DNA from: Lachnospiraceae bacterium
Lineage (GTDB): Bacteria; Bacillota; Clostridia; Lachnospirales; Lachnospiraceae
Direction: 5' to 3'
NCBI GenBank assembly: GCA_017620255.1
Contig: JAFZQU010000025.1
Location: 1-64,000 of the forward strand
Length of the DNA: 64,000 bases
This document shows positions 1 through 59,900 of the stretch, in pieces. The translations under genes were made by a program, and so were the position numbers. The notes under the pieces were generated by a model, which was given only the letters and a program-made list of their open reading frames with translations, searched no databases and was not told the origin of the DNA. The first letter of the stretch is position 1. The number at the start of each line of letters is the position of its first letter.

Positions 1-1
1 C

Positions 2-3000
2 GGGACTGCGCTTCCGGCAGACAATAATTATACCTGGACGGATGCTGATGAAAAACTGTATACCGAATTTGGCAGTGCGGATGACGACACATATAATTGG
101 ACAGAAACAGATGAAGCACTCTATAAGACTTACGGAGTTGCCAGAGATAATAGGAATGAATGGACAGATGGGGAAGAAGCAGCGTATAAGACCGATGTAG
201 AGAACGGCGCAACGCTCGACCAACTCAAGTCCAAATATGGCTCCCGTATGAAATATCGTATGCGTTACCGTATGCGTTATCGTATGCGCTATCGTATGAG
301 GTATCGTATGCGCTATCGTATGCGTTACCGTATGCGCTATCGTATGTGTTATCGTATGCGCTATCGTATGCGTTACCGTATGCGCTATCGTATGAGGTAT
401 CGTATGCGCTATCGTATGAGGTATCGTATGCGTTACCGTATGCGTTATCGTATGCGTTATCGTATGCGTTATCGTATGCGCTATCGTATGAGGTATCGTA
501 TGCGTTACCGTATGCGTTATCGTATGCGTTATCGTATGAGGTATCGTATGCGTTATCGTATGAGGTATCGTATGCGTTACCGTATGCGTTATCGTATGCG
601 TTATCGTATGCGTTATCGTATGCGCTATCGTATGAGGTATCGTATGCGTTATCGTATGCGCTACCGTATGCGCTATCGTATGCGCACCATGCTGGTCGAT
701 TCCACGGACGGATCTTCCGGGAATTATGAGATCCGGGACGCTGAGGGCACGCAACTTGCAACGATATCCGGCAGAAGGCTGAATGTGAACGAAAACAAGG
801 CGGATGAGGTCGTAGGCCTCACATCCCTTGGTATGATGCAGAATGAAGCCGGAACAGAGATCGTACGGACAGCTCCTGTAACAGAGGGAAATCTGATCGC
901 AGTGACGACAGATGAAACCGTTGTGGAAAACAAAGAAAACAAAAAAATGCAGATCCACTCTCTGGACGGAGACAAGTATGTCGATGTTGTAACGGACGCA
1001 TCCAGGGTTGCAACGACGCTCGACGCAGAAAAAGGAGAAGTATCCGCAACGGTGTATGCCGGCAATCAGGAGGACTTCCGTATTACCCTTGGTACAAATG
1101 AAAGCGGTACGGCAGAGGAACAGGCAGTTACGATTGACGGATGTGGAACATCAAGAGGGAAAAATAAAAAACAGTCGGCAATACTGAAAGAGGATGCCGA
1201 TGGAAACGCGGATCTTCTCTTAAGTGAGATCAGTGCGGACAACCTGAGTCTGGAGAATGTGGAAATAGACACGCTGGAGATGGATGCTGCAGCGATCAAC
1301 AGTATCACGGTCAAGGATGGCGCCAGTGTAGATAACCTGCTGATAGATGGCGGAAGCATCACCACCATCAAAACGGATCCGAACGGTTCTGTTGAAAGTG
1401 TTGTTGTCAGTGCCGAAACGGATTCAAAAAATCTAACACTTCAATGCGGAGGTCCGGAAGATACTGCGGTTGATATCAAAGACCTTGATATTGCGCTTTC
1501 CTTTGCGCAGAAACTCCGTTCCAAAAACTCCGCTTTGCCGGAAGCGTTCCTTTATCATGATGAGAAAACGCTGACGATCGGGGAAGACTATTCTGTGGTC
1601 TACAAGGAAAATACAGACAATGGAACGGTATCCATGTCGATTTACGGGTTGGCTCCTGATTATAAAGGACGTTATGATCTTGATTATGAAATGATCAACG
1701 GAAGCCTGCTGGGAGATCTTATGTTTGAAGATCCCGAGGGTATGCCGCAAGTACTTGTCAAATCCGTAGACGGCGGAACTGAAACAGTTATCCGTTATGT
1801 CGGACGGGATCTGAAGCGAATCATCAAGAAGGATGACACAATGGAACTGACTTCGGATATCTGGTCCTGTGGCTTAAGCCGCGAATACCGGTATACGGGT
1901 TCTGCCATCAAGCCGAATATCTCCGTTTATGACGGAACGAAAAAACTGATAGCCGGGACAGATTACAGTGTTAGCTTGAAAAATAATACCAAAGTTGGAA
2001 GTACAGCGGTCGCGACAGTAAGCTTTAAGGGAAATTATAAGGGGACAGCTCCGCAGAAACTGAGTTTCACAATTGTACCGGCGGTGCTGGGCGAAGATGT
2101 GACAGTGGAAGATCTGGTGATCGCCGCAACCGGAAGAGTACAAAGCCCTGTACCTGTTATAAAATGGAAATCTACAGGAAAGAGCATTGCAAAGACAGGG
2201 TTTGATTTTGTCTACAGTGATGATGTGAATGGGGTCGGCCCTTATACTGTAGAGATCAAACCGAAGACGAATAATGCAAACTTTACCGGGACATTGACCG
2301 CGAACATCACGGTTGTGGAAAAATCACAGTTATTCTCGAAGGTCGCCGTGACCCTGAAACCGAATTCGTATGTTTATACAGGTAATGCGATAAGACCGGC
2401 TTCCGGAACATACACGCTGAAACTGAACGGGGTAGATCTCGTGGAAGGTGATGATTACGTGGTAGTCGGCGTGCAGAATAATACGAATGTCGGGACGGCA
2501 ACTATTGTCTTTGCGGCTAAAGAGGGCAATGCGAAGAATCTGGTCGGCAGTAAGAACGCGACATTCAAGATCGCAAAAGGCAGGGAACTGAAAAAAGAAC
2601 CCGGCTTTACCTACAAGTACAGCACCTCCGTTCCTTATGCCAAGGGAGGAGCAAAACCTGCGATCACAGTACAAGACGGTGCCAGAACACTTACAGAGGG
2701 AAAAGATTACACCGTTAGTTACAGTAAAAATACCGCGGTGACCACCGGGGCAACAGCCGTCATGACAGTGAAAGGCAAGGGTGATTATAAAGGGACGCTG
2801 GCATTCAACTTTGCGGTTGCGCGGCAGGACATTGCAAAACTGAAAAAGAATATCACAGTGGAAGATAAGGTGGTATCCAAAAAGGGATATCAGAATCCGG
2901 CCGTTAAGATCACAGATCTGGACGGAAAGGCTTTGAGAGCCGGAACGGATTATCAGATCACGGACTATGACGACAGTCTGTTAGAGGAGAAAGGCGAAGT

Positions 3001-3379
3001 GAGTGCTGTTATCAGCGGCCGTGGTAACTATTCGGGAAGCACAGTGATCACTTACCGCTATATTACGGCTGACAAGAATCTGAACAAGGCAGCGCTGATG
3101 CAGGCGATCCCTTCCAAAGACTATACAGGAAGAGCCGTAACACTGAAGAACGAAGATCTTACGGATGTTCTGTATCTCGGTACCAAGAAGTCTCCGACCT
3201 ATCTGGTTCCGGGTGTAGACTTTGAGATAGCCGGTTACAGCAACAACATCAAATCCGGAACGGCGAAAGTGACGCTCAAGGGAATCGGTAATTATGGTGG
3301 AACGAAGACGGTCAACTTTAAGATCGGTACGAGAAACGGCGGATTTCTGGGATATCTGGCAGATCTTTGGTGGAATTAG
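2..3379 (+). CDS. Giant secreted repeat protein, 3' part (5' end outside window)
   Basis: The frame is open from the first bases of the window, so the true start lies upstream. The ATG at 248 is only a Met inside the repeats and has no ribosome site. The visible 1,125 residues run as follows. First come three 21-residue repeats with Trp codons at 35, 98 and 161 (motif W-T-x-x-[DE]-E-x-x-Y). Then come 36 copies of Tyr-Arg-Met-Arg (254–685), then about 300 acidic, Ser/Thr/Asn-rich residues. From about base 1,890 there are roughly six Ig-like modules of the type YTG-x-[IV]-[KR]-P … GTDY … NNT … GNYxG, known from secreted Lachnospiraceae proteins. The C-terminus is a short aromatic tail (…YLADLWWN) with no LPXTG or membrane anchor. 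Inferred role: extracellular adhesin or matrix protein. The repeat region is odd in being strongly basic within an otherwise acidic protein. Surface location is likely; function is unknown. Confidence 0.8.
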   Translation, partial: GTALPADNNYTWTDADEKLYTEFGSADDDTYNWTETDEALYKTYGVARDNRNEWTDGEEAAYKTDVENGATLDQLKSKYGSRMKYRMRYRMRYRMRYRMRYRMRYRMRYRMRYRMCYRMRYRMRYRMRYRMRYRMRYRMRYRMRYRMRYRMRYRMRYRMRYRMRYRMRYRMRYRMRYRMRYRMRYRMRYRMRYRMRYRMRYRMRYRMRYRMRYRMRYRMRYRMRYRMRTMLVDSTDGSSGNYEIRDAEGTQLATISGRRLNVNENKADEVVGLTSLGMMQNEAGTEIVRTAPVTEGNLIAVTTDETVVENKENKKMQIHSLDGDKYVDVVTDASRVATTLDAEKGEVSATVYAGNQEDFRITLGTNESGTAEEQAVTIDGCGTSRGKNKKQSAILKEDADGNADLLLSEISADNLSLENVEIDTLEMDAAAINSITVKDGASVDNLLIDGGSITTIKTDPNGSVESVVVSAETDSKNLTLQCGGPEDTAVDIKDLDIALSFAQKLRSKNSALPEAFLYHDEKTLTIGEDYSVVYKENTDNGTVSMSIYGLAPDYKGRYDLDYEMINGSLLGDLMFEDPEGMPQVLVKSVDGGTETVIRYVGRDLKRIIKKDDTMELTSDIWSCGLSREYRYTGSAIKPNISVYDGTKKLIAGTDYSVSLKNNTKVGSTAVATVSFKGNYKGTAPQKLSFTIVPAVLGEDVTVEDLVIAATGRVQSPVPVIKWKSTGKSIAKTGFDFVYSDDVNGVGPYTVEIKPKTNNANFTGTLTANITVVEKSQLFSKVAVTLKPNSYVYTGNAIRPASGTYTLKLNGVDLVEGDDYVVVGVQNNTNVGTATIVFAAKEGNAKNLVGSKNATFKIAKGRELKKEPGFTYKYSTSVPYAKGGAKPAITVQDGARTLTEGKDYTVSYSKNTAVTTGATAVMTVKGKGDYKGTLAFNFAVARQDIAKLKKNITVEDKVVSKKGYQNPAVKITDLDGKALRAGTDYQITDYDDSLLEEKGEVSAVISGRGNYSGSTVITYRYITADKNLNKAALMQAIPSKDYTGRAVTLKNEDLTDVLYLGTKKSPTYLVPGVDFEIAGYSNNIKSGTAKVTLKGIGNYGGTKTVNFKIGTRNGGFLGYLADLWWN
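20..208 (+). repeat. Three 63-bp tandem repeats (21 residues each)
   Basis: Trp codons lie exactly 63 bp apart at 35, 98 and 161. Each unit reads roughly N-x-x-W-T-x-x-[DE]-E-x-x-Y-x-[TE]-[FY]-G. The copies are diverged at the DNA level, which suggests an old repeat under protein selection. More copies may lie upstream of the window. Confidence 0.75.
254..685 (+). repeat. 12-bp minisatellite, 36 units, encoding (Tyr-Arg-Met-Arg)36
   Basis: The unit is TA[T/C]-CGT-ATG-[CGT/CGC/AGG], repeated 36 times without interruption. The middle CGTATG is invariant. Variation is confined to Tyr codons (TAT/TAC) and the last Arg codon (CGT, CGC, AGG), with a single TGT (Cys) at 347–349. Almost all variation is therefore silent in this frame. 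Unit length is a multiple of three, so copy-number change would not break the frame. Confidence 0.95.
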
Positions 3380-3434: not shown

Positions 3435-3488
3435 GTTAATGCAAAAACAAAGCGTCTCTGACGTTTTGCAAGGAAAGGGGTGACCGGC

Positions 3489-4016
3489 ATGAAATTTACG
3501 ATTGTTGGAAAAAACATTGACATCACCGAAGGACTCAGAAATGCTGTTGAGGACAAGATCGGCAAATTGGAGAGATATTTTACACCGGACACGGAAGTTC
3601 ATGTAACACTTAGCGTAGAGAAGGAAAGACAGAAGATAGAGGTCACGATCCCGGTGAAGGGATCCATCATCCGCTCCGAACAGGCCAGCAACGATATGTA
3701 CGTATCCATAGACCTGGTGGAAGAGATCATTGAGAGACAGCTCAAGAAATACAAGAACAAACTGATCGATTCCAAGCACGGCGCATCCAACTTCAAGCAG
3801 GATTTCATGGAGAAGGATTTTTCGGAGGACGAAGAGATCAAGATCGTCCGCTCGAAACGTTTTGACATCAAGCCGATGTATCCGGAGGATGCCTGCATCC
3901 AGATGGAACTTTTAGGGCATGGATTCTACGTATTCTGCAATGCGGAAACGGATCAGGTAAACGTTGTATATAAGAGAAAAGGAAATACTTACGGATTGAT
4001 CGAACCGGAGATCTGA
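3489..4016 (+). CDS. hpf: Ribosome hibernation promoting factor, long form
   Basis: Binds the 30S subunit in stationary phase or stress and, in the long form, drives 100S ribosome dimers through its C-terminal domain. The 175-residue product has the N-terminal S30AE/RaiA fold (about residues 1–105, beginning MKFTIVGKNIDITEGL). A linker follows, then the conserved C-terminal dimerisation domain (about 120–175: IVRSKRFDIKPMYPEDA…). This is the usual length for firmicute long HPF. ATG 3489 was chosen over the in-frame GTG at 3480 because AGGAAAGGGG (3471–3480) sits 8 nt before it. It has its own promoter and a terminator follows. It lies next to secA–prfB as in many firmicutes, but with mtnA between. 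Confidence 0.93.
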   Translation: MKFTIVGKNIDITEGLRNAVEDKIGKLERYFTPDTEVHVTLSVEKERQKIEVTIPVKGSIIRSEQASNDMYVSIDLVEEIIERQLKKYKNKLIDSKHGASNFKQDFMEKDFSEDEEIKIVRSKRFDIKPMYPEDACIQMELLGHGFYVFCNAETDQVNVVYKRKGNTYGLIEPEI

Positions 4017-4052
4017 GCGCATTCCATGCGGCAGATCACGATCAAAAAGAGC

Positions 4053-4084
4053 AGGGAAGCACCGGCGGTGCTTCCCTTCTTTTC
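4053..4084 (+). terminator. Rho-independent terminator of hpf
   Basis: A perfect 11-bp stem (4053–4063 with 4067–4077), GGC loop, then TCTTTTC. It ends only about 7 nt before the mtnA ribosome site, so mtnA is either transcribed by read-through or has a promoter inside hpf. Confidence 0.8.
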
Positions 4085-4103
4085 GGGAACAGGAGGATGA
4101 GGC

Positions 4104-5192
4104 ATGAAAACAGGCCTGACATATGATACGGTTGCGCTGAACGAAGCAGGAGACGCGCTGCTGATCATCGACCAGACAAAGCTGCCAAACGAGGAAGTGA
4201 TCCTTGCTTTAAAGACGCAGAAAGAGATCCATGACGCCATCTATCTGCTGCAGGTGCGCGGGGCACCGGCGATCGGCGTAGCGGCAGCCTACGGCGTCTA
4301 TCTGGCCGCAAGGGAGATGGATACACAGGATTACGATACTTTCGCGAAACAGTTTCATGATGCCGCCGCCTATCTGAATTCCGCCAGACCGACGGCTGTC
4401 AATCTGTCCTGGGCACTGCGCAGGATGGAAGATGTTGTGGCAGAAGCAAAGAACTGCAGTGTTGCAAAGATCAAAGAGCTCCTTAAGAAAGAAGCGGAAG
4501 AGATACAGGAAGAGGATATCAACATCTGCCGTATGATCGGCGAATACGGCCTGACCCTGATCAAAAAAGGGGACGGACTCCTGACGCACTGTAATGCGGG
4601 ACAGCTTGCCACGAGCCGGTACGGAACGGCAACGGCACCGATGTATCTGGCACATGAAAAGGGATACGGCATCCACGTCTTTGCGGATGAGACCAGGCCG
4701 CTTTTACAGGGGGCCAGGCTGACGGCTTATGAACTGAACAAGGCCGGGATCGATGTGACGCTGATCTGCGACAACATGGCTTCCATGGTGATGAGACAGG
4801 GAAAGGTGCAGGCGGTCTTTGTCGGCTGTGACAGGGTGGCCATGAACGGGGACGCCGCCAATAAGATCGGCACGTCCCAGGTCGCGATCCTTGCAAAGCA
4901 TTACGGGATCCCCTTCTATGTATGTGCGCCCTCTTCCACGATCGATGAAAACCTGACTGACGGCTCACAGATCCCGATCGAGGAACGCCCCGGGGAGGAG
5001 ATCTGTTCGATGTGGTATGAAAAGAGAATGACGCCTGAAGGCGTGAAAACCTACAATCCTGCGTTTGATGTGACGGATCATACGCTGATCAGCGCGATCA
5101 TCACGGAGAACGGGATCGCAAGGGCTCCCTATGAAACATCCCTGCGTAAGATGCTCGAGGGGAAAAAGGGACACAAAATGCAGGCGGAATAA
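4104..5192 (+). CDS. mtnA: S-methyl-5-thioribose-1-phosphate isomerase
   Basis: Converts 5-methylthioribose-1-phosphate to methylthioribulose-1-phosphate in methionine salvage. It belongs to the eIF-2B alpha/beta/delta-like isomerase family. The 362 residues match the family length. Visible signatures are [13 protein letters not shown] near residue 50, HCNAGQLAT with the conserved Cys near 160, [15 protein letters not shown] near 195, and [18 protein letters not shown] near 245 with the catalytic Asp. AGGAGG lies 7 nt before the ATG. No other salvage gene (mtnK, mtnB or similar) is nearby, so the pathway must be completed elsewhere. The family also includes ribose-1,5-bisphosphate isomerases, but the motifs here fit MtnA. 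Confidence 0.92.
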
Positions 5193-5237
5193 GGCTCTGA
5201 TCAGGTTTTGTTCACAAATATTTTACAGATAGACACA

Positions 5238-5266
5238 TTGAACAGCCGCACCATTTCTGCTAAAAT
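5238..5266 (+). promoter_or_regulatory. Putative sigma-A promoter of secA–prfB
   Basis: TTGAAC (5238–5243), a 17-bp spacer and TAAAAT (5261–5266), 40 bp before the secA start in the only sizeable gap upstream of it. Confidence 0.6.
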
Positions 5267-5306
5267 AATGGGTAACGCTGAAAAGACGGAGTGTTAAAAG
5301 GATTTT

Positions 5307-7880
5307 ATGAAATTAGTTGAAAAAATATTCGGTACACATAGTGAGCGGGAACTGAAACTGATCCAGGATACCGTAGATCAGGTGGAATCTTACCGCGACG
5401 CCATGAGAGCGCTTTCGGACGCGGAACTGAAGGACAAGACGAAGGAATTCAAGAAGCGCTACAGCGAAGGCGAGACACTTGACGATCTGCTGCCGGAAGC
5501 ATATGCGGTCGTTCGGGAAGCAGCAAGACGTGTTCTGAAGATGGAGCACTATCGTGTACAGATCATCGGCGGCATCATCCTGCATCAGGGCAGAATCGCC
5601 GAGATGAGAACAGGTGAAGGTAAAACATTAGTCGCGACTTTGCCTGCTTACTTAAACGCATTGGCCGGACGCGGCGTGCATGTCGTCACGGTCAACGATT
5701 ACCTGGCCAGCCGTGATGCGGAGTGGATGGGACAGATCCATGAGTTCCTGGGCCTGACGGTCGGCTGCGTACTCAATGAGATGAAGCCCGAGGAAAGACG
5801 GGCTGCCTATAACTGTGATATCACCTATGTGACCAATAACGAACTCGGTTTCGATTATCTGCGTGACAACATGGTGATCTACAAGGAACAGCTGGTCCTC
5901 AGGGATCTTGCGTTTGCCATCATCGACGAGGTGGACTCGGTGCTCATCGACGAAGCCCGGACTCCGCTGATCATTTCCGGTCAGAGCGGCAAATCCACCA
6001 AACTCTACGAGGTCTGCGACATCCTGGCAAGACAGATGAAGCGCGGAGCCGACATGGAAGATCTGACCAAGATGGATGCCATCATGGGGATCGAGCGTGA
6101 AGAGAGCGGTGATTTTATTGTCAATGAAAAGGATAAATTCGTCACTCTGACGGCTGAGGGCGTACGCAGGGTTGAGCAGTTCTTCCAGATCGAGAATCTG
6201 GCCGATCCCGAGAATGTGGAGATCCAGAACAATATCATCCTGGCGCTGCGTGCGCACAATCTGATGTTCCGCGACCAGGATTACGTGGTCAAAGACGATC
6301 AGGTGCTGATCGTGGACGAGTTTACCGGACGTATCATGCCGGGACGCCGTTATTCCGACGGTCTGCATCAGGCGATCGAGGCCAAAGAGCATGTCAAAGT
6401 CAAACGCGAGAGTAAGACGCTTGCGACGATCACTTTCCAGAATTTCTTTAATAAATTCGAGAAAAAATGCGGTATGACCGGTACCGCGCTGACAGAAGAA
6501 AAAGAATTCCGTGATATTTACGGGATGGACGTTATCGAGATCCCGACAAATAAGCCTGTGGTCAGAAGAGACCTGCAGGATGCCGTATATAAGACAAGGC
6601 GCGAGAAACTGCATGCGATCTGCGATGAGATCGAACGGGCGCATGCAACGGGACAGCCGATCCTGGTCGGCACGATCACGATCGAGGCCTCGGAAGAACT
6701 GAGTGCACTGCTTAGGAAGCGCGGCATCCAGCATAAAGTGCTGAACGCGAAGTTCCATGAACTCGAAGCGGAGATCGTAGCGGACGCCGGTATACACGGG
6801 GCAGTTACGATCGCGACCAACATGGCCGGCCGTGGTACGGATATCAAGCTGGATGAGCAAGCCAGGGCAGCAGGCGGCCTGAAGATCATCGGTACGGAAC
6901 GTCATGAATCCAGACGTATTGATAATCAGCTGCGAGGCCGTTCCGGACGACAGGGCGATCCCGGTGAATCCAGGTTCTTTATCTCGCTCGAAGACGATCT
7001 GATGCGTCTGTTCGGTTCCGAGCGTCTGATGAACGTATTCAATGCACTGGGCGTTCCCGACGGTGAACAGATCGAGCATAAGATGCTCTCTTCCGCGATC
7101 GAGAAGGCACAGACAAAGATCGAGAACAACAACTTCGGTATCCGTAAGAATCTGCTGGAATATGACCAGGTCATGAACGAGCAGCGTGAGATCATCTATG
7201 CGGAGCGCAGAAGAGTACTTGACGGCGAAAGCATGCGCGATGTGATCTTCCGCATGGCGACTGATTTTGTCGAAAATACCGTGGATATGTGTATCGGCGA
7301 GGATTCCGTTCCGGAAGACTGGGATCTGGCCGAACTGAACCAGCACCTTTTGGCAACGGTTCCCGTACAGGAACTGACGCCTGAGAGGGTGAAGGATCTT
7401 AAGAAAAAAGAATTAAAGCATATGCTCAAGGAAGAGGTCGTTAAGCTCTATGAGGCCAAGGAGACCGAATTCCCGACACCCGAGCAGATCCGTGAACTGG
7501 AACGCGTGATCTTACTCAAAGTCATTGACCGCAAGTGGATGGACCACATCGACGATATGGACCAGCTGCGGCAGGGTATCGGGCTGCAGGCTTACGGTCA
7601 GAGAGACCCGCTTGTTGAGTATAAGATGATGGGCTATGAAATGTTCAATGCCATGACGGATTCCATCAGTGAGGAGACCGTCCGTGTTCTGATGCATATC
7701 CGCGTCGAGCAGAAGGTGGAACGTGAGGAAGTGGCCAAGATCACCGGAACGAACAAAGACGATTCCGCACAGAAGAAGCCGCAGAAGCGCGAGGTGGCCA
7801 AGATCTATCCGAACGATCCCTGCCCCTGCGGTTCAGGCAAGAAATATAAGCAGTGCTGCATGCGCAAGAAGGAAGCGTAG
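5307..7880 (+). CDS. secA: Preprotein translocase ATPase SecA
   Basis: The motor of the Sec pathway: it binds preproteins and pushes them through SecYEG by ATP hydrolysis at the inner face of the membrane. The 857 residues include Walker A MRTGEGKT near residue 100, the DEVDS Walker B near 210, the preprotein cross-linking region (about 230–370), the second nucleotide domain ([12 protein letters not shown] near 505; [11 protein letters not shown]), the helical scaffold and wing, and a C-terminal zinc motif ([13 protein letters not shown]) for SecB or ribosome contact. AAAAGG precedes the ATG. prfB follows after 8 nt and is surely cotranscribed. This is the only secA in the window, and its full domain set marks it as the housekeeping copy. 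Confidence 0.97.
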
Positions 7881-28454: not shown

Positions 28455-31400
28455 ATGGGTAGATCATGGAGAAGGCTTTTGGCGATACTGATCTGTCTGG
28501 CGTTGCTTTTGTGCACACAGGCGATCAGTATTTTTGCATCTGAAGGACCGGTTCCCGAAGAGGAAGCGGTGAGCGTGGATGTGAATACTGACACAGATGC
28601 AGAGTGTTTAGCAGGTGAAACGGCATCGGTTGCCGTTGAGGACCCTAAGGAGGATGTAACAGAGGAGAACGAGAATCTCTCTGTTCCGGACAGTACATGG
28701 AAAGCATCCGAAGACGCGCCGTATGGGCTGACATATAACGATAGCAATAATGAGATCACGATCACGGGCTGTGAAGTTTATGATTGGGATGCGTTTGAAG
28801 AGAATGATCCCAATATTATTCTGGAAATCCCGGCTGAGATCGATGGTAAACCGGTCACAACGATCGGGAAATTTGCCTTTTGCGAGTGCTATGTTTCCGC
28901 GGGGCTTGACCTACCGGACAGCATCACCAGGATAGAAGAAGATGCTTTCAGTCATAGTGGATTTAAAGGAACACTGACACTTCCCGCAAATCTGACGTAT
29001 ATCGGAGACTATGCATTTGGTGATTGCATCGGATTCAGGGGCGATCTTTCATTGCCTGCCAGCCTTCAGTACCTCGGACATAGCGCTTTTGGTAACTGCG
29101 GGGGATTTAACGGTACATTAACCTTACCTGCAGGACTTGAGACCATCGGTAACTATGCGTTCGGTTTTTGTTCCGGATTGACAGGGGAACTGACATTACC
29201 GGCAAACCTGAAAACGATTGAAGGCAGTGCATTTGCCAATTGTCGAGGGCTGACCGGTTCTCTGGTTTTACCGGATGGAGTTGAAGAAGTAGGAAGCGGA
29301 GCATTTGCCAGATGCACCGGGTTTACCGGGACATTGTCAATTCCGGAGGGAGCATGTTGTGCCTTCAGAGCGTTTGAGGGTTGTTATGGATTTCGAAAAG
29401 TAATAAACAACTCTTTTGAACAGATCTTCTTATCGGAATTATCCGACCAGGCGCATAATAACAAAGAACGCAGGAACTGGATCAACGAGGAGAGCGGAGA
29501 AAACATTGTTTCGATCGCAGAAGGCACAGCTGTGATCGAGGATGACGGGGCCTATAAAAAGTATCTGCCCTATGAAGGTGCAACCTATCAATTAACATAT
29601 ACAACCCGATATGATAACGGAAAGGATGAGGTCTGTATCACAGGGTTTACGGGGACTTCCGGGGGAGAATTTGTCATTCCGGATCAAATTGACGGAATCC
29701 CTGTCACAACGATCGATGATTTTGCCTTTTTTGATTCGCAGGATAACGGAACACCGTTTGAGGGGGCATTTGTATTGCCGGACACGTTGACAACGATCGG
29801 AAGACAGAATTTCTATGGAAAGACTTATCATAAACTATCCGGCGAACTAATCCTTCCGGCCGGACTGAAGAGTATCGGGTACGGATGTTTTTATCGTTGT
29901 TTAGGCCTTACGGGAGACATTACCATTCCGGACGGTGTGGTTTCAATCGATGGGTTTTCTGATTGCAGCAGGCTGAACGGAACCGTGACGATCCCTGCCA
30001 GCGTGAAGACGATCGGTCCCAATTTCCTATTGCTTACAGAAAACGTAAATAAAGTTGTGAATCGGTCTTCCGTCCCGGTCGATCTCACAGTTATATCGAA
30101 AACCAAAAGCTGGATCAATACAAACACGCTTAAAACCGTAACAAGCATTGCAAAGGGAACGGCAACTGTAGACGACAGTGTATCCATAAAAACCGTGTTG
30201 CCACAAGGCATTGAGGATCCTGCGTATGAACTGCAATATGTGGTACTCAATAACCGTGAGGTCCGGATCGTCGGAACAAATTCCAGGAAGCTAGAAGGCG
30301 TTGTTGAGGATTGGCAGCTTGTCATACCGGAGGAGATCGACGGATACCCGGTTACGGAAATCGGATCATCTGCTTTTCAAGGATTTGGCTGGTATGGAGA
30401 TATTGTGCTCCCGGACAGCGTCAAAAAGATCGGCGATTGGGCGTTCTCTGCCTACGGCTATTGGCAGGATGAACCCAGTGTGTTAACACTCCCGTCAGAT
30501 CTGAAGGAGATCGGACAGGGCGCTTTTGTGGGATGCTCTTTTGCAAACGAGGAACTGGTCCTTCCGGACGGATTAAAAACGATATCATATAGAGCATTCG
30601 AAAATGCGTTTTCTGATCTGCAAAGTGTAATCATTCCGGCAAGTGTCACTTTTATAGGAGAAGATGCATTTTACGGGTGTTACTGTGGAACCGTTGTAAA
30701 CAGATCTGCCGTAACCTGCCCGTTGCCCGTCGGTAGTCCTAACGAAGATGGTTGCCATATGTGGATTGACGAGGGGACAAGGCTGAAGATCACGGGTATC
30801 ACACAGGGAACAGCAGTTTATACAGAGGTGAATACAGCTTACAGTCCTGAAGGTGCAGCATACAGGTTTATGTACCTGGAGCAGACAAAAAACGGTGAAA
30901 CAACTGCGATCATAGCCGGTATTTATGATGACTCCGGGAAATATGAGTCTGTGATCGAAGGCGATCTGATCATTCCGTCTTCGATCAACGGAATTCCGGT
31001 TACCGAAATTGCTTCTCATGCAATGTATCAGGTAAAGGCAACCGGAAAACTGGTCTTACCGGATACACTTCTGACAATCGGAGAGAGCGCGTTTTATGGT
31101 GCTACATTTGACGGAGACCTTTGGATTCCGATGAGCGTAACATCGCTCGGAAGGGATGCATTCGCATATTGCCAAAGTCACTATGGGCGTTTGATGCTTT
31201 CAAACAGTCTGGTTCGGATCGGTGAAGGTGCGTTTAGACATACAGATTTCACAGGCAGCCTGAAACTGCCTTCCGGCCTGCGTCAGATTGAGGATAGTGC
31301 ATTTTTGGAAGCACGTTTCACGAATGATCTGGAAATCCCGGAGGGTGTTATATCGATTGGCAGAGTTGCCTTCGACATGAACAGCTTCAGCGGTACCCTG

Positions 31401-33560
31401 ACGATCCCGGCCAGTGTGCAGGTGATCGGTGACAGCGATCTGTACGGATACGCATTCAGGGGCGCCTCCTTTACGAAGGTAGTGAATAAATCGGCAATAC
31501 CGGTTTCGCTGGAACAGTTCTCCTATAAGACCTGGAGAAACTTAAGTTCGCTTCAGTATGTATCGAGAATCGCAAAAGGAACGGCTGTCCGGGCAGATTA
31601 TGTGGGCATAGACAGCATCCCGGATCAGATTTATACGGGTGCACCCATTAAACCGGAGATCGTTCTGACCGGCAACTCCCATAACGGTGTACTGGGCGAG
31701 ATCGGCTATACGGTATCCTATTCGAACAATACGAATGTCGGCATTGCGACTGCGACGGTTACCGGAAAGGGTGATTTTGCAGACAAGATCACAATCCGTT
31801 TCCGCATTGTTCCACGCTCTTTGGGAGAGGGAGATGCATTTGGAGACGGCTTTGAGGCATACGCGCCGAACATGCAGTATAACAACGGTAAGGAACTGAA
31901 GTCCAAACCCGTGATCAAACTGGGATCCGTTACGCTTAAGGAAAGCAAGGACTACACAGTTGCGTACACTGGAGATCTGAAAGGTGAGACGGATGGTAAA
32001 GCAACCGTCATCGTGACCGGCAAGGGTAATTTCACAGGCAGTGCAAAACTGGATTACAAGATCTTCAAGAAAGAAGAAAGCCTGGCAAATGCAACGATCG
32101 CAGCGATCGATCCGCTGGCCTATACCGGCGATGAGATTAAGCCTGATCTTGCAGTAACCTTTAACGGCAATCCGCTCACGGAAAATGATGATTTTGTGGT
32201 CACTTACAGCAACAATATCAATGCCTCCAAGAAAGCTGTGGCAACGATCACCGGTATCGGTAATTACGGTGGTTCAAAGAGTGTGAACTTTACGATCACG
32301 CCGGCGCAGCTGACGGCAGGCATGGTAGAGATCGATCCTGTCACCTATACCGGAAGTGCCATCAAGGCAGAGCCGGCAGTGACATTTAACGGGACGCCGC
32401 TCACGCAGGGCAAGGATTTCACGGTATCCTATAAGAACAACACAAATGTAGTCAACACAAAGGGCGATCCCACGGCAACGATCAAGGGCAAAGGCAATTT
32501 TACAGGTAGCGTTGATAAGGCCTTTGAGATAGAGCCGCTGGAACCGGATGCAGACGAACTGTCCGTAACGGTAGATAATGTGAAAATCAGCCAGACGGGA
32601 GCAGTTGTGAATGAAAGTGTACTGAAAGCAACTGTAAAATACGGAAAGAAGACCCTAGCCAAAAACAAGGATTATGTGATCCGCTATACAACTGCACAGG
32701 ATTTCACAGACCGGTGGCAGTCTGCAACAGTTACGCTGATCGGAAATTACACGAGTGACCCGATTGTGCAGAACTTCCTGATCTATACAACACAGCAGGC
32801 GTTGGCTCTGACAAATGCAAATGTGACCCCGGAGGAGGGCCCGTTCACGTACACAGGTGAAAAGATCACACCGGAGATCCTTGTGAAGGATGGAACGAAG
32901 GTGCTGACACTCGGAAGGGACTATACGCTGTCCTATGCGAATAATACCAACGCCGCCAAAGCTAATGCCGGCAAAAAAGCTCCGGCCTGGACTGTAAAAG
33001 GCAAGGGAGCCTATAAAGGCACGGTAAGCGATACGTTCGCGGTCGATCCTGTGGATATCACCGATGGCAGCAGGTGCATGGTCACAGTACAGGATGCAAA
33101 ATACAACGCGGGGAAAGCGGTGAAACCAAAGGTTGTTGTAGTCGATCTGGACACGGAAAAAGTCCTGAAGGAGAAAAAGGATTATACGGTCGAGTTCAGC
33201 AACAATACCAAGAAGGCGGAAATAGATGCTGCCGAAAAGCCGACAGCGGTAATCAAAGGCATCGGCAATTATGCAGAGGAGCTTCCGCAACTGTTCCGGA
33301 TCTATGAATTTGACATATCCACGGTGACGGTTGATATAGAGCCCTGTCGCTATTACGGCGGTCAGATCAAGCCTGCATTTACAGTTTATAAAGACAAGAA
33401 GAAAACCCAGGTGCTGGATCCGTCAAATTATGATGTTGCATACGGAACCAATGTCAATGTCGGAAACGGAACGATCACGCTGAAGGGCAAAGGTGCTTAT
33501 GGCGGTTCCGCAACATTCAAGTTCAAGATCCTGCCGAAACAGGTATCCAATCTGCTCTGA
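28455..33560 (+). CDS. Giant BspA-like leucine-rich-repeat and Ig-like-module secreted protein
   Basis: The 1,701 residues begin with a signal peptide (about 1–29, ending SIFA) and a short acidic region. About 900 residues of LRR_5-type repeats follow, with the recurring L-P-x-x-[VL]-x-x-I-G-x-x-A-F pattern. They are broken into three or four blocks by linkers with the SI-AKGTAV motif. From about residue 1,050 to the end come about nine YTG-x-x-IKP … DYTVSYxNNT … KGKGNYTG modules. There is no LPXTG, S-layer or choline-binding domain, so the means of surface attachment is unclear. GGAGGG lies 6 nt before the ATG. BspA-like proteins are known adhesins of gut and oral bacteria; binding to host or substrate is inferred. 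Confidence 0.85.
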   Translation: MGRSWRRLLAILICLALLLCTQAISIFASEGPVPEEEAVSVDVNTDTDAECLAGETASVAVEDPKEDVTEENENLSVPDSTWKASEDAPYGLTYNDSNNEITITGCEVYDWDAFEENDPNIILEIPAEIDGKPVTTIGKFAFCECYVSAGLDLPDSITRIEEDAFSHSGFKGTLTLPANLTYIGDYAFGDCIGFRGDLSLPASLQYLGHSAFGNCGGFNGTLTLPAGLETIGNYAFGFCSGLTGELTLPANLKTIEGSAFANCRGLTGSLVLPDGVEEVGSGAFARCTGFTGTLSIPEGACCAFRAFEGCYGFRKVINNSFEQIFLSELSDQAHNNKERRNWINEESGENIVSIAEGTAVIEDDGAYKKYLPYEGATYQLTYTTRYDNGKDEVCITGFTGTSGGEFVIPDQIDGIPVTTIDDFAFFDSQDNGTPFEGAFVLPDTLTTIGRQNFYGKTYHKLSGELILPAGLKSIGYGCFYRCLGLTGDITIPDGVVSIDGFSDCSRLNGTVTIPASVKTIGPNFLLLTENVNKVVNRSSVPVDLTVISKTKSWINTNTLKTVTSIAKGTATVDDSVSIKTVLPQGIEDPAYELQYVVLNNREVRIVGTNSRKLEGVVEDWQLVIPEEIDGYPVTEIGSSAFQGFGWYGDIVLPDSVKKIGDWAFSAYGYWQDEPSVLTLPSDLKEIGQGAFVGCSFANEELVLPDGLKTISYRAFENAFSDLQSVIIPASVTFIGEDAFYGCYCGTVVNRSAVTCPLPVGSPNEDGCHMWIDEGTRLKITGITQGTAVYTEVNTAYSPEGAAYRFMYLEQTKNGETTAIIAGIYDDSGKYESVIEGDLIIPSSINGIPVTEIASHAMYQVKATGKLVLPDTLLTIGESAFYGATFDGDLWIPMSVTSLGRDAFAYCQSHYGRLMLSNSLVRIGEGAFRHTDFTGSLKLPSGLRQIEDSAFLEARFTNDLEIPEGVISIGRVAFDMNSFSGTLTIPASVQVIGDSDLYGYAFRGASFTKVVNKSAIPVSLEQFSYKTWRNLSSLQYVSRIAKGTAVRADYVGIDSIPDQIYTGAPIKPEIVLTGNSHNGVLGEIGYTVSYSNNTNVGIATATVTGKGDFADKITIRFRIVPRSLGEGDAFGDGFEAYAPNMQYNNGKELKSKPVIKLGSVTLKESKDYTVAYTGDLKGETDGKATVIVTGKGNFTGSAKLDYKIFKKEESLANATIAAIDPLAYTGDEIKPDLAVTFNGNPLTENDDFVVTYSNNINASKKAVATITGIGNYGGSKSVNFTITPAQLTAGMVEIDPVTYTGSAIKAEPAVTFNGTPLTQGKDFTVSYKNNTNVVNTKGDPTATIKGKGNFTGSVDKAFEIEPLEPDADELSVTVDNVKISQTGAVVNESVLKATVKYGKKTLAKNKDYVIRYTTAQDFTDRWQSATVTLIGNYTSDPIVQNFLIYTTQQALALTNANVTPEEGPFTYTGEKITPEILVKDGTKVLTLGRDYTLSYANNTNAAKANAGKKAPAWTVKGKGAYKGTVSDTFAVDPVDITDGSRCMVTVQDAKYNAGKAVKPKVVVVDLDTEKVLKEKKDYTVEFSNNTKKAEIDAAEKPTAVIKGIGNYAEELPQLFRIYEFDISTVTVDIEPCRYYGGQIKPAFTVYKDKKKTQVLDPSNYDVAYGTNVNVGNGTITLKGKGAYGGSATFKFKILPKQVSNLL

Positions 33561-36362: not shown

Positions 36363-39300
36363 TCAGGGCTCCAAAATGATGGGAGCAAACCAAGTGAACA
36401 GGAGTTTCTTTTGGCCGATCTTATACTTTTCGGTCTTCTCGCCGCAGTAATTGCCAATCCCGCGCAGCTTGATCTTGGCGGTACCGACTTTGCAGGCATC
36501 CTCGTATCCGACGATCTCATAATCGGACGGCTCTAAGGTTGTCTGGCCGATCTTGACTACAATGTCTGCCTTTGTGGGATAAACGGCCTTTCCGGCATAA
36601 TCAAAGGCTTTGCCGCCATTGATGGTCACTTTCGCTTTGCTCAGATCACCGGCTTTGACGGTGTAGAGCGTGGAGACGGAAGTATTACTATAAGGATAGT
36701 AATCATATACCGTAACCCGGATCAACGCAGTTGTTCCTTCTTGTAAAATATCATTGGGTGAAACGGGAGTACCGGCACGGCGTATACTGCCGTTGTCGAG
36801 TATGACATCGCGCTCATATTCATATTTGATAGTCTTGTCGTAATCTGTTCCCGCTTTCAGTTTGGCACCGTTGAGAGTTACGGTAGGTGTAGAGAACAAA
36901 CCGTTCTTCTTTTTACTTCGAACCAGATCCGGCGCCGAAACGGTCGCGTTGTTAAGATAGTGGGAATATGTCATATCGTATTTTGCGGTGATCTTGCCTG
37001 TGAATCCCCCCTTGCCTGTAATGGTCACCTCAGGTTTTTTACGATAATCGTATTTTTTGTGGTTCTTATAACTCAACGTGTAATCAATGCCTTCGCGTAG
37101 TTCCACATCGTCATAAAGTATAGTCAGAGTAGGAATTGCACCGGTTGAGACATAGTTTGCATAAAAATCATCATTATTTGCAAAACTATAACCATAATAT
37201 GTGTATTCAGCTCCATTCCAGGACCACTTACTGCTTGATACATTCGTGACATTGATTGTTATCCTGTTGCTTACGATGTTATGTCCGGTGATCGTGAATT
37301 GTTTGGAAACGGATCCGTTGAAGCGTCCCATTCCATTCACTGTCATCGTGGCCTTTCCGGCTTTGGTGTTGTTCTTGTAAGTGAGATAATAGTCTGTTCC
37401 TTCCTCCAATTCTTTTCCATCGTAGTAAACTTCAGGCTCCTGGAAGTATGCACCATTTTCCGTGGCGTCCGCATCCCATTCCACCGCATCGTCATAATCA
37501 CTGATCGTGGCATTCTTGATCGGTGCCTGTGCGACCTTGAAGGTTTTGCTCAAGGAACCTGTGTAGTCACCTGTACCCGTGATGATCATGGTAGCAGTTC
37601 CGGCCTGTGCGTTATTTCTGTACTCGATCGTATAGTTGACATCTTTAACCAGCTTGGGACCGGTCCTGGTCAGCCATACTTCCAGTTTTTCTTCGTCTTG
37701 CGTGTAACCGCCCTTTGCCGGAACCGGGTCGCTGGACATCAGGACGGATGACTGGAAGTTTTTCAGCGTTGCCTTGGCTATGGATGTAGCTTTATCTTTG
37801 GCGACGATGGTAAGGTCTACAGTGATAGCCTCATCAGCATCTGTGCAGAAGTTACCCTTACCGGTCAGGGTGATATCATATGTTCCGGAATTTACATATG
37901 CACCGTCTTCGGTACTCGGATAACTTACAGTGAAATCCGTGTTATTCTTCAGAACGATCCCGTTGTAGTAGACTACGGGAACCGGTTTGATTGCTTTACC
38001 GGTTGCGAGTTCGCGGATCGGACTGACCTGAATGTGTCCGGTGTCTTTTTCATGTTTTAGTGATGCTTTGACAATATCAAACAGAACCTTCTCCTGGCCC
38101 GAATAGTTTCCCTTTCCGTTCACTGTGATCGTGGGCCTCTTGGAATCGGGCAGACCTGTCGATACGTTTTTATTATTCTTATAGGAAAGGGTGTAGTCAG
38201 TTCCTTTTACGAGCAGTTTGTTTCCGTGGTATACACGGGGCTCCGGAGTTACGTTAGCTCCTGTATAGACAACCTCTGAGTCATAACTGGCATCCGCCAC
38301 CCAAATATCATGTGGAATGAAAGCAGGACACTCTCCATCAAACCCGATCTGTGCTTTGTCAGCGTTACAGATGTCGCCCCATTCAGCGTCAGGATCACGC
38401 GTCACCGTATAATCGAACATTTCCACGCTGCTGTCGGTATAGTCGGTTTTAACTGCGTATGCCATGATCGTAAACGTGTCACCGTCTACTCCTGTTACGG
38501 GAATAGGTTCCGTGTAAAGCGTGCTGTCCTTTGTAGGTGTTGTTCCGTTTGTTGTATAGAAGATCTGTGCATCTTTTGTATCCACAGACAACTCTATTTT
38601 TTCGCCCGGAGTAACGTTGCTTCCGGAGTCAATCGATGCGGATGGAGCTTCAACCCGATATTGTGCTGACCAATCGGCATACAGGGTCATATTCCCATCG
38701 ATGGTTTCGCCAAGATTGAACTCCGTGCCACCTTCATCCAACCAACCGTTAAATACACTGTTGGATCTTTGCGGATCTTCGATGGTGAACGTTCCATTTT
38801 TGCAGACTTTGATCTCATCTTCGGTGAGGCTGACTGTGCCGCCGTTTTCTGCGTTTCTTAAGAAATAACCGCCGTTCGCATTAAGTTTTACCGTATACTC
38901 CGTGAGGGCAACGGTAACCTTACAGGTAGCCTTACGGCCACCGTAATAAGCAGTTATCGTGGTTTCACCGTTTGCGACTGCTGTAACAACACCTTCTTCT
39001 ACAGTTGCAACATCACGGTCATCCGAGTGCCAGATCATGCAGTTAGTAGCCTCAAAGTCCTCCTCATTGGCAGCATCATATGCTTTCGCACTGAGTTGTT
39101 TCCAACTACCGACCTGCGATTCTTCTCCAAACATAAGTGCAGAGACTGGCTCATCTTCCCCTTGCATTGTCAGTTTAATTCGTCCGTCTAAGCCCCCATC
39201 AGCGGTCAGGGCATGGATACCGAGATTGCCGGAAGGATACTTTCTGTCCCCGTTTCCCTTTTTCCCGAAATCGACCCATTTCCTGCCGTCATAGAGGAAA

Positions 39301-41021
39301 CTCTGTTTATCCTGCGCACCGACAGACTGTTCAAGCCCGGTCCAGGCAAGTCCGCCACACTCGTAGTTGACAGATTTTTTATCACTTAATGTGATGACAA
39401 CAGAGAAGGATTCACCATAATTGAGTTCTACCGGCTCTTTAAGCGGAATGGTGTACATACCGCTTAATGCGATCGTACCGGTTGTAGTAGCTTCCTCTGC
39501 CTTATCACCGCTCTCAGGTCCTTTTGCCGGATCCACATTTTTGTAGATCTCGATCGTATAGCCGATATTGGAGCCGGTTATATAAGAAAGATCAAAATAC
39601 ACCGCCTGCAGAGTTTCCTTACTGCTTGTGTCTTCGCTGTTAGCCTGGTAGATATTGGCGCTCTTAACAGCATTTGTGCGGTCACAGAGATGGATCTGGG
39701 AATCATAGAAGTAGTTGTTGTCAAAATCAGGGTCCGCCGGATCTATCATCTCATAAACCCAGAAATCAGACATGCTTTTATCTTCATAAGACATCCAGAA
39801 ATAAGAGTCGTAGTCAATTCCGGTTTCGGTTGTCCAGCTGTTCCGTATCAGCCAGGCTCCGTCATTGGCCGGTTTCATATGATACTTGCCGTACCACCAG
39901 TCGCTGGAGTCAAAATTTTCTCTCGGATAGTCGTCATCCCAGCCGACGACAGCGACCGCATGAGTAGTGTTAAAAACAAACGGGCAGTAGTAGGCAGAAG
40001 TATCGTAATTGAAATACTCATTGTAATCGTGATAGGAAACTCCGAGAAGTCCGTTCTTCAAGAGCGTTTCTTTTGCGAGTTTCGTATTGTTGCGGCTGAT
40101 CATGTATGCATTTTTAAGATAGGCAACATTGTCATGTTCTGAGTCGGGATCCAGCCGGTCATCATACTCAATATCCGAAAACGGATAATTGTTTTCACTT
40201 GCCACACCGCGCCGCTGCATCAGTGTCAGCGCCGCCATATAACTGTTGCCGCCAACACCATATATGCTGGGCTGGCTTCCGAACGAACCGGTTACTCCGT
40301 TATAGTATATTGTATCTCCGGTATCCCCGGCCAGAGAAGGTTTCCCCTGTGTGTAGGCCCAGTAGGACAGATGGCGTTCGCTGAAGTCAACATCCTTTTC
40401 AGCCATTCCATGAGAGATCATATAGAATTCAGACATTGCGAGAGCGGAATGAGCCCAGCAGGTTCCTGTCCAATCCTGATCCCTGGTATCCGGATAGTAT
40501 TTTTTCAGATAGGTAAGAATATCTTCTTCTCTATCATAGGAATAAGGAAAAGCACGGCTTGCCGCACTTGCACCCATTGCTTCCTGTGTTGCATTCAGGT
40601 ATTCCCGATCTTCTCTGGAATCGTTCAACGCGTCCTTCATGGACTGATAATCCAGATCCTGGTCTACGACCGGTGCTTCGCTTTCACCGGGCATCGGTAA
40701 GTAACCGCCCCCATGTGGATCATCATGCCGATGCAGACGCTCAGTTTCAGAGTCAGAATCCTCCGTGGCTTCTTCCGGAGCTTCTGTCTCATCAGCTTCC
40801 GGCAGATCCGCTTCGTCTTCGACGGTTTCTGCAGAGTCTGATTTTTCCGCAAGGGTTTCTTCCTCGGAAGGGGATGCTTCCTCCACCTGTTCGGTGGTTT
40901 CTTCCACAGCCACAGGTTCTTCCTTGATTACATCCGCCCAGGCGGGAGTGCTCTGGGCAAGGGTGACTACCGCAGCGAGCAGGGCTGCCAGCAGTCGGAT
41001 GGTGCGGGGTGTTCTCTTCAT
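36363..41021 (-). CDS. Giant secreted papain-family (C1) peptidase with lectin-like and Ig-like modules
   Basis: The 1,552 residues are laid out as follows. A signal peptide (1–29, ending AWA) precedes an acidic stretch (30–95). The C1A peptidase domain (about 155–405) has Cys188 (GTCWAHS), His354 (TTHAVAVVGW) and Asn394 (LIRNSW), all catalytic residues being present. A lectin-like beta domain often attached to such peptidases follows (about 410–560). Then come a Big_2-type Ig domain (about 605–685), an InlB-type B-repeat (about 690–765), a chitobiase/FN3-like C-terminal domain with Y-T-T-N-G-T-T-P, and about seven YTG/GTDY modules to the end. Minus-strand CGGAGG precedes the ATG. There is no wall anchor. 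Inferred: extracellular protease tethered through its repeats. Confidence 0.88.
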   Translation of the reverse strand: MKRTPRTIRLLAALLAAVVTLAQSTPAWADVIKEEPVAVEETTEQVEEASPSEEETLAEKSDSAETVEDEADLPEADETEAPEEATEDSDSETERLHRHDDPHGGGYLPMPGESEAPVVDQDLDYQSMKDALNDSREDREYLNATQEAMGASAASRAFPYSYDREEDILTYLKKYYPDTRDQDWTGTCWAHSALAMSEFYMISHGMAEKDVDFSERHLSYWAYTQGKPSLAGDTGDTIYYNGVTGSFGSQPSIYGVGGNSYMAALTLMQRRGVASENNYPFSDIEYDDRLDPDSEHDNVAYLKNAYMISRNNTKLAKETLLKNGLLGVSYHDYNEYFNYDTSAYYCPFVFNTTHAVAVVGWDDDYPRENFDSSDWWYGKYHMKPANDGAWLIRNSWTTETGIDYDSYFWMSYEDKSMSDFWVYEMIDPADPDFDNNYFYDSQIHLCDRTNAVKSANIYQANSEDTSSKETLQAVYFDLSYITGSNIGYTIEIYKNVDPAKGPESGDKAEEATTTGTIALSGMYTIPLKEPVELNYGESFSVVITLSDKKSVNYECGGLAWTGLEQSVGAQDKQSFLYDGRKWVDFGKKGNGDRKYPSGNLGIHALTADGGLDGRIKLTMQGEDEPVSALMFGEESQVGSWKQLSAKAYDAANEEDFEATNCMIWHSDDRDVATVEEGVVTAVANGETTITAYYGGRKATCKVTVALTEYTVKLNANGGYFLRNAENGGTVSLTEDEIKVCKNGTFTIEDPQRSNSVFNGWLDEGGTEFNLGETIDGNMTLYADWSAQYRVEAPSASIDSGSNVTPGEKIELSVDTKDAQIFYTTNGTTPTKDSTLYTEPIPVTGVDGDTFTIMAYAVKTDYTDSSVEMFDYTVTRDPDAEWGDICNADKAQIGFDGECPAFIPHDIWVADASYDSEVVYTGANVTPEPRVYHGNKLLVKGTDYTLSYKNNKNVSTGLPDSKRPTITVNGKGNYSGQEKVLFDIVKASLKHEKDTGHIQVSPIRELATGKAIKPVPVVYYNGIVLKNNTDFTVSYPSTEDGAYVNSGTYDITLTGKGNFCTDADEAITVDLTIVAKDKATSIAKATLKNFQSSVLMSSDPVPAKGGYTQDEEKLEVWLTRTGPKLVKDVNYTIEYRNNAQAGTATMIITGTGDYTGSLSKTFKVAQAPIKNATISDYDDAVEWDADATENGAYFQEPEVYYDGKELEEGTDYYLTYKNNTKAGKATMTVNGMGRFNGSVSKQFTITGHNIVSNRITINVTNVSSSKWSWNGAEYTYYGYSFANNDDFYANYVSTGAIPTLTILYDDVELREGIDYTLSYKNHKKYDYRKKPEVTITGKGGFTGKITAKYDMTYSHYLNNATVSAPDLVRSKKKNGLFSTPTVTLNGAKLKAGTDYDKTIKYEYERDVILDNGSIRRAGTPVSPNDILQEGTTALIRVTVYDYYPYSNTSVSTLYTVKAGDLSKAKVTINGGKAFDYAGKAVYPTKADIVVKIGQTTLEPSDYEIVGYEDACKVGTAKIKLRGIGNYCGEKTEKYKIGQKKLLFTWFAPIILEP

Positions 41022-59807: not shown

Positions 59808-59900
59808 AACTGCATTTTTGGAATGTCTTTATTTACAGAACGCGAAAATTTCGTTTTTTAGATGGGTTACAGGCAACAGTTCAGACAAAGGAGAGAACAA

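Follow-up and report, generated by a model that had tools for sequence, protein, structure and literature searches.

In proteins of the FUS type, which form condensates through Tyr and Arg stickers, multivalent contacts are made between Arg and aromatic residues; these proteins are intracellular, their stickers are irregularly spaced and no acidic repeat adjoins them. A tract offering the same kinds of residues, (Tyr-Arg-Met-Arg)36, is encoded at positions 254..685 of the forward strand of the window described here, the whole 64,000-nucleotide stretch of contig JAFZQU010000025.1 (positions 1 to 64,000) of a Lachnospiraceae bacterium, assembly GCA_017620255.1. The tract follows directly upon an acidic, Trp/Tyr-rich block in the same open reading frame (ORF), and the two may be sticky polymers of opposite charge, joined as a pair on a secreted surface protein, a tentative reading to which a probability of about 0.45 is given from the sequences compared.

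Prothymosin alpha (-44) and histone H1 (+53) are described as a disordered acid/base pair (PMC11592313) and as both keeping their disorder (PMC7661507). To that extent they resemble the acidic block and the tract, being long chains of opposite charge and similar magnitude. They are, however, two proteins, whereas the blocks described here are fused in one probably secreted bacterial protein and their pairing is predicted; furthermore, both blocks are aromatic-rich and the tract is also Met-rich. The same alternation of hydrophobic and cationic residues is found in the designed amphipathic beta-stranded [XZ]n peptides (PMC8757834). If the tract were extended, Tyr and Met would lie on one face and Arg on the other, a resemblance of pattern only: the [XZ]n peptides are mainly designed models, whereas the arrays are natural tracts of 36-144 residues within a large protein and with an acidic block adjoining. 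With the BspA-type/DUF285 (PARCEL) surface proteins the tract protein shares DUF285 repeats in its own N-terminal part; these were matched together with LRR_5 in the relatives L023, L024 and L027, and neither family was matched in the cut ORFs L025 and L026. Unlike what is found in those proteins, the acidic block and the tract lie outside all the Pfam and NCBIfam matches found, which above cut-off cover only DUF285, LRR and a Big_2 part. No solved structure credibly matched the segment formed by the acidic block, the tract and the part behind it. A literature search for doubled motifs found no paper, and neither a search for 'YRMR', among the matches listed, nor further searches gave one on such tracts, judged by title and abstract start. 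The tract protein appears to be a repeat-bearing secreted surface protein, here with an unusual acid/base pair.

As assembled in the draft genome, positions 254-685 comprise 36 contiguous 12-bp units in register and with zero indels, and the peptide encoded in the frame of the ORF at 2-3379 has a net charge of +71. The first-pass annotation of this DNA had described 36 perfect units; number and register stand, but the units are not quite perfect, since YRMR is encoded by 35/36 and unit 8 (338..349, forward strand, TATCGTATGTGT) carries a TGT codon and reads YRMC. Six unit variants are present, in 13, 8, 7, 4, 3 and 1 copies. They differ at positions 3, 10 and 12 of the unit and, as had been claimed, all changes (TAT/TAC, CGT/CGC and AGG) are silent in the ORF frame except the one TGT. 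As regards the further claim, that the same changes alter the peptides of the other open frames, three alternative frames are open across the tract and their peptides vary; the other two carry stops within it, forward frame 1 (one base later) being broken by TGA at the AGG units and one reverse frame by many stops. The YRMR tract is a real observation. Because arrays with other silent patterns are present in seven other genomes, it is neither chance nor a one-off assembly artefact, the alternative that the annotation itself had raised.

The genome_contigs collection was searched first with a pattern of three YRMR units in which the Arg preceding Met was encoded by CGT. The pattern matched five stretches, distributed over four metagenome-assembled Lachnospiraceae genomes, and each holds an in-frame (YRMR)n tract in a large ORF; additional arrays were found by searching these four genomes, and an acidic-block profile added three genomes, of the genus of G471 and G473, with YRMK or FRMR tracts. 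The total was 21 arrays in 8 genomes of three genera (20 arrays in seven genomes besides that of the window), among 37, 7 and 4 genomes searched in these genera; absence within the genus and family was judged by the YRMR patterns and the acid profile. The 421 units, counted in register from first to last, are 227 YRMR, 96 FRMR, 76 YRMK and 22 others, with Tyr/Phe at position 1 in 412, Arg at position 2 in 412, Met at position 3 in 413 and Arg/Lys at position 4 in 406; because the ends of the arrays were defined by an RM motif, R and M are favoured at those ends. Array length ranges from 9 to 36 units and is 24 versus 14 in the close homologues L024 and L027, in agreement with the proposal that unit number can vary without breaking the frame. 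Tyr is not needed everywhere, since FRMR and YRMK versions occur in relatives; Tyr-specific chemistry (dityrosine, sulfation, DOPA) as a general need was set aside because FRMR arrays exist.

A 12-residue interruption, FRLDYTN(K/Q)LKLK, occupies the same site in the homologous tracts of L086 and L087, which shows that interruptions can persist for long. A DNA match in G028 (35 bases, E 1.8e-4) was discarded as an array, its locus having no YRMR frame. As regards a phage or plasmid origin, three patterns were unmatched in IMG/VR and a stretch of the L025 protein was unmatched in phage and plasmid collections.

The ratio of nonsynonymous to synonymous differences (pN/pS) within arrays was 0.10 in the ORF frame for ten YRMR arrays (234 units) and 1.94, 2.75, 0.83, 13.0 and 0.53 in the other five frames, codon pairs containing stops being skipped and Ser-codon paths inflating pN in the ORF frame. 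Counted as distinct codon variants per array, which are not fully independent, the same ten arrays hold 68 silent versus 13 coding variants, with about 21% silent expected. Selection on the peptide, as first proposed for the window alone, is therefore borne out across species. Between the homologues L086 and L087, from two genomes, 3/104 tract residues differ, with 43 silent and 7 coding changes and a pN/pS of 0.04; in the N-terminal part 500/1396 residues differ. Elsewhere in this pair the ratios are 0.25 (acidic block), 0.38 (N-terminal part) and 0.17 (C-terminal part), the tract being lowest. For L024/L027 the tract, whose alignment is uncertain as the arrays differ in length, has a ratio of 0.14, close to the 0.13 of the N-terminal part, while the acidic block has 0.26 and the C-terminal part 0.21. 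These comparisons strongly support selection on the peptide itself, most clearly in the more divergent pair, L086/L087. The core CGTATG is fixed in the array of the window and is broken elsewhere by CGG, CGC, CGA, AGA and AGG, which rules out a role in DNA or RNA alone and indicates that the peptide is what is kept. Taken overall, the earlier interpretation of the tract is partly supported.

An acidic Trp/Tyr-rich block lies directly upstream of the tract, in the same ORF and always in this order, in 21/21 arrays. Nineteen blocks are complete (that of the window being counted with its part on another contig, described below), and those of L026 and L104 are cut by contig ends. With block starts set by sequence motifs, the complete blocks measure 140-367 residues and have a net charge of -32 to -85, against tract charges of +15 to +71; both maxima belong to the gene of the window. 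In the 18 one-contig cases the block contains 29% Asp+Glu, 4.6% Trp and 6.2% Tyr, and the commonest Trp spacing is 23. In ten arrays the tract was detected first and the acidic block was recognized afterwards; in the other eleven it was the block that led to the tract. The acid profile A4 matched 1/37 members of the genus, 1/299 of the family, 2/4 of genus C and 5/7 of genus B, and tracts are present in every genome matched; in genus B, 16 of the 17 matched contigs carry tracts and the contig of L113 ends just behind the acidic block. In the homologues read that have no tract, L090 (two ORFs, G025) and L091 (G002), both the acidic block and the tract are absent and the post-tract domain follows the peptidase-like domain at once (hmmsearch best-domain E 2.8e-20, 4.3e-7 and 1.4e-5 for the three sequences), for which reason block and tract appear to form one insert. 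The tract-free set consists of these three homologues; weaker matches to the peptidase-like domain, G025:C74, G025:C70, G020:C26 and G000:C25, are outside it. With the acidic block directly upstream, the nearest polyanion to the tract is the protein itself.

The draft genome consists of 48 contigs; the window begins where one of them, C32, begins, and this contig end falls inside the acidic repeats. The ORF (2..3379, forward strand) reads without interruption from base 2 to its stop codon (3377-3379), has no start at the contig end and represents the C-terminal 1125 codons of a probably secreted protein of ~3243 aa. Positions 1..104 of the forward strand form an exact 104-nt overlap with another contig end in this draft genome, that of C29, the assembly break lying inside the acidic repeats. 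The C29 frame runs open to the contig end, and its 2152 codons carry the 5' part of the tract gene: a signal-peptide-like stretch (by eye), DUF285 repeats in 8 stretches, a peptidase-like domain and acidic WT..DE repeats. Judging from this overlap, from the frame and from relatives, in which the parts come in the same order, C29 and the window are probably neighbours and are read as one gene; in this genome the acid profile matched C29 and C32 only. Positions 2..253 (forward strand) encode the last 84 residues of the acidic block, with W at aa 12, 33 and 54, and the complete block has ~367 aa and a net charge of -85.

Behind the tract, on the same strand, the first part of the post-tract region (686..1465) can be aligned with its counterparts in the other tract proteins, and in the three tract-free homologues read it comes immediately after the peptidase-like domain. 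The YTG/GTDY module region (1886..3379) is similar to large proteins of the genus, otherwise different, in their C-terminal part. Proteins resembling the part behind the tract, mostly its YTG modules, were found in 26/37 genomes of the genus, with differing N-terminal parts, subtilase-like in L074 and papain-like in L070 (by eye). The window part of the ORF alone gave zero Pfam or NCBIfam models above cut-off; it is the C29 part, with DUF285 at 326.6 bits in the 8 stretches and LRR_5 at 62.6 bits (both above cut-off), that places the protein among the DUF285/BspA-type surface proteins. These repeats and the signal-peptide-like start make a location outside the cell, already assumed in the first-pass annotation, likely. 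The sorting motif of LPxTG-anchored surface proteins, searched as LP.TG, was found within the last 60 residues in 0/21 ORFs, L106 (nt 6310) being cut by a contig end.

The peptidase-like domain of the C29 part contains GGSCYGLS, GHAVLAY and IYDSNWP, and the motifs GSCYG, GHA(V/I/L)L.Y and YDSN.P are present in 18/18 proteins that reach the Cys site. Peptidase_C39_2 matched 1/12 domain sequences, weakly (E 0.0048). Comparison of the domain with solved structures (PDB) gave zero credible relatives; a prion protein chain (E 0.095) was taken as a chance match. The AlphaFold2 model of the domain is of low confidence (pLDDT 36.8).

According to the preferred reading, the tract would be the basic half of a two-block charged polymer, with the acidic half first and the basic ([Y/F]-R-M-[R/K])n directly after it, the pair being flanked, in a secreted surface protein, by the peptidase-like domain on one side and a small conserved domain on the other. 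The blocks would pair by charge together with Arg/Met-aromatic contacts, either in cis, one molecule folding back into a condensed segment, or in trans, neighbouring molecules being cross-linked into a cohesive surface layer. Unit number would set the strength of pairing and could change without loss of frame.

The type of each array, defined by its majority unit, bears on this reading. Genomes G471, G473 and G470 have four, two and two YRMR arrays, G477 has five YRMK arrays, G474 and G475 have three FRMR arrays each, and G000 and G472 have one YRMR array each, so that the type is uniform in 6/6 genomes with two or more arrays. The flanking-domain tree nevertheless requires 6 type changes, and its well-supported branches force at least 3 changes for the FRMR label (2 in an earlier tree with fewer filled columns): L108 (FRMR) groups with L024/L027 (YRMR), and L109-L112 (FRMR) with L086/L087 (YRMR). 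Because each genome has one type despite these changes, paralogues appear to have switched type together. L108 retains a few YRMK, YRMN and YRMR-like units at its upstream edge and L112 a single YRMR unit, which may be left over from a former type. Uniformity within genomes is what would result if the arrays in a cell had to fit one another or a single partner, and selection for such matching is one possible reason.

Several results weigh against the pairing of the two blocks. Copying between loci is another possible reason for the uniform type: L108 (G474) and L112 (G475), which belong to two gene clades, share 5 three-unit DNA words versus 1.4 in shuffled arrays, a level reached in 7/1000 shuffles, and 9/210 pairs share any three-unit word. 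Within genomes, sharing is low or at shuffle level except for the sister genes L084/L085 (two-unit words) and, slightly, L023/L026; 48-base words are common to L104/L106 alone, at a level no higher than that of shuffled units. Block and tract correlate only in raw length and charge (rho 0.58 and 0.56, n=19; in the first set of nine, length rho 0.74 and charge rho 0.31, the latter not significant), and after correction for relatedness no correlation was left (length r=0.11, p=0.66; charge r=0.17, p=0.51), so that tuning of length or charge between the blocks was discarded. The acidic charge exceeds that of the tract in 19/19 complete cases, profile A4, derived as it is from YRMR proteins, may overlook acidic blocks that are distant, and both AlphaFold2 structure predictions are of low confidence.

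The main rival, considered rather doubtful, is that the tract binds an external polyanion in trans (the cell's own teichoic acid or capsule, plant pectin, mucin or DNA), the acidic block serving to mask it, so that it stays soluble during export or before it reaches its target. The peptide is strongly basic and aromatic and probably outside the cell, one type per genome would fit a species-specific ligand, and the absence of LP.TG (0/21 ORFs, last 60 residues, one cut) may call for another attachment. On the other hand, the acidic charge, outweighing the tract in all complete cases, would compete with the ligand, and similar YTG modules, which may serve placement without a tract, occur C-terminally in large proteins of the genus that lack one.

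A new type of secreted bacterial protein with its acid/base pair as a species-matched glue, in which the array type (YRMR, FRMR or YRMK) would be set per species across paralogues and the proteins of one cell, or of like cells, would cohere in trans through arrays and acidic blocks, is unlikely. The word sharing of L108 and L112, which stands out, counts slightly against it.

It is quite unlikely that the repeat is an ordered spacer, a regular beta or helical rod whose conservation reflects folding and not stickiness. The four-residue period is very strict (Arg2 412/421, Met3 413/421) and AlphaFold2 draws a helix over part of the tract, but this model has a pLDDT of about 33-45 and array length varies widely. 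A lone rod of like charges is itself improbable.

A masked membrane-active peptide, a weaker rival and very unlikely, would be a cationic amphipathic beta-type repeat freed by cleavage and damaging competitors, with the acidic block acting like an anionic propiece. It draws on the resemblance to alternating cationic/hydrophobic peptides (PMC8757834) and on the Cys, His and Asp motifs of the peptidase-like domain in all proteins reaching the Cys site; a tract in the middle of the protein would, however, need two cuts, and the part behind it is also conserved. Neutral slippage without a role at the peptide level, although tandem repeats expand by themselves and unit number varies, is rejected as highly improbable by the silent and coding counts (68 versus 13, with about 21% silent expected) and by the pN/pS of 0.04 in the L086/L087 tract, the lowest of that pair's parts.

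Downstream of the tract gene, positions 3480-7880 (forward strand) encode a ribosome hibernation factor (S30AE), an IF-2B family protein and SecA. Further along the window are a BspA-type LRR_5 protein of 1701 aa with seven matched stretches (28455-33560, forward), another large protein, in which a papain-family (Peptidase_C1) domain and a Lectin_like domain are accompanied by a stretch resembling YTG-type modules (36363-41021, reverse), and a 1194-aa ORF with zero Pfam matches at E 1e-5 (59862-63446, forward).

The strict rule of aromatic, Arg, Met and basic residue, together with the fixed acidic neighbour, makes the tract traceable across species from genomes alone. The native YRMR, FRMR and YRMK tracts with their own acidic blocks would allow the roles of Tyr and Phe, of Arg and Lys, and of Met to be told apart. 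If the pairing is true, it would be a compact natural system for how charged sticky polymers evolve, and it would bear on acid/base pairing outside cells and on how these bacteria build their surface layers.
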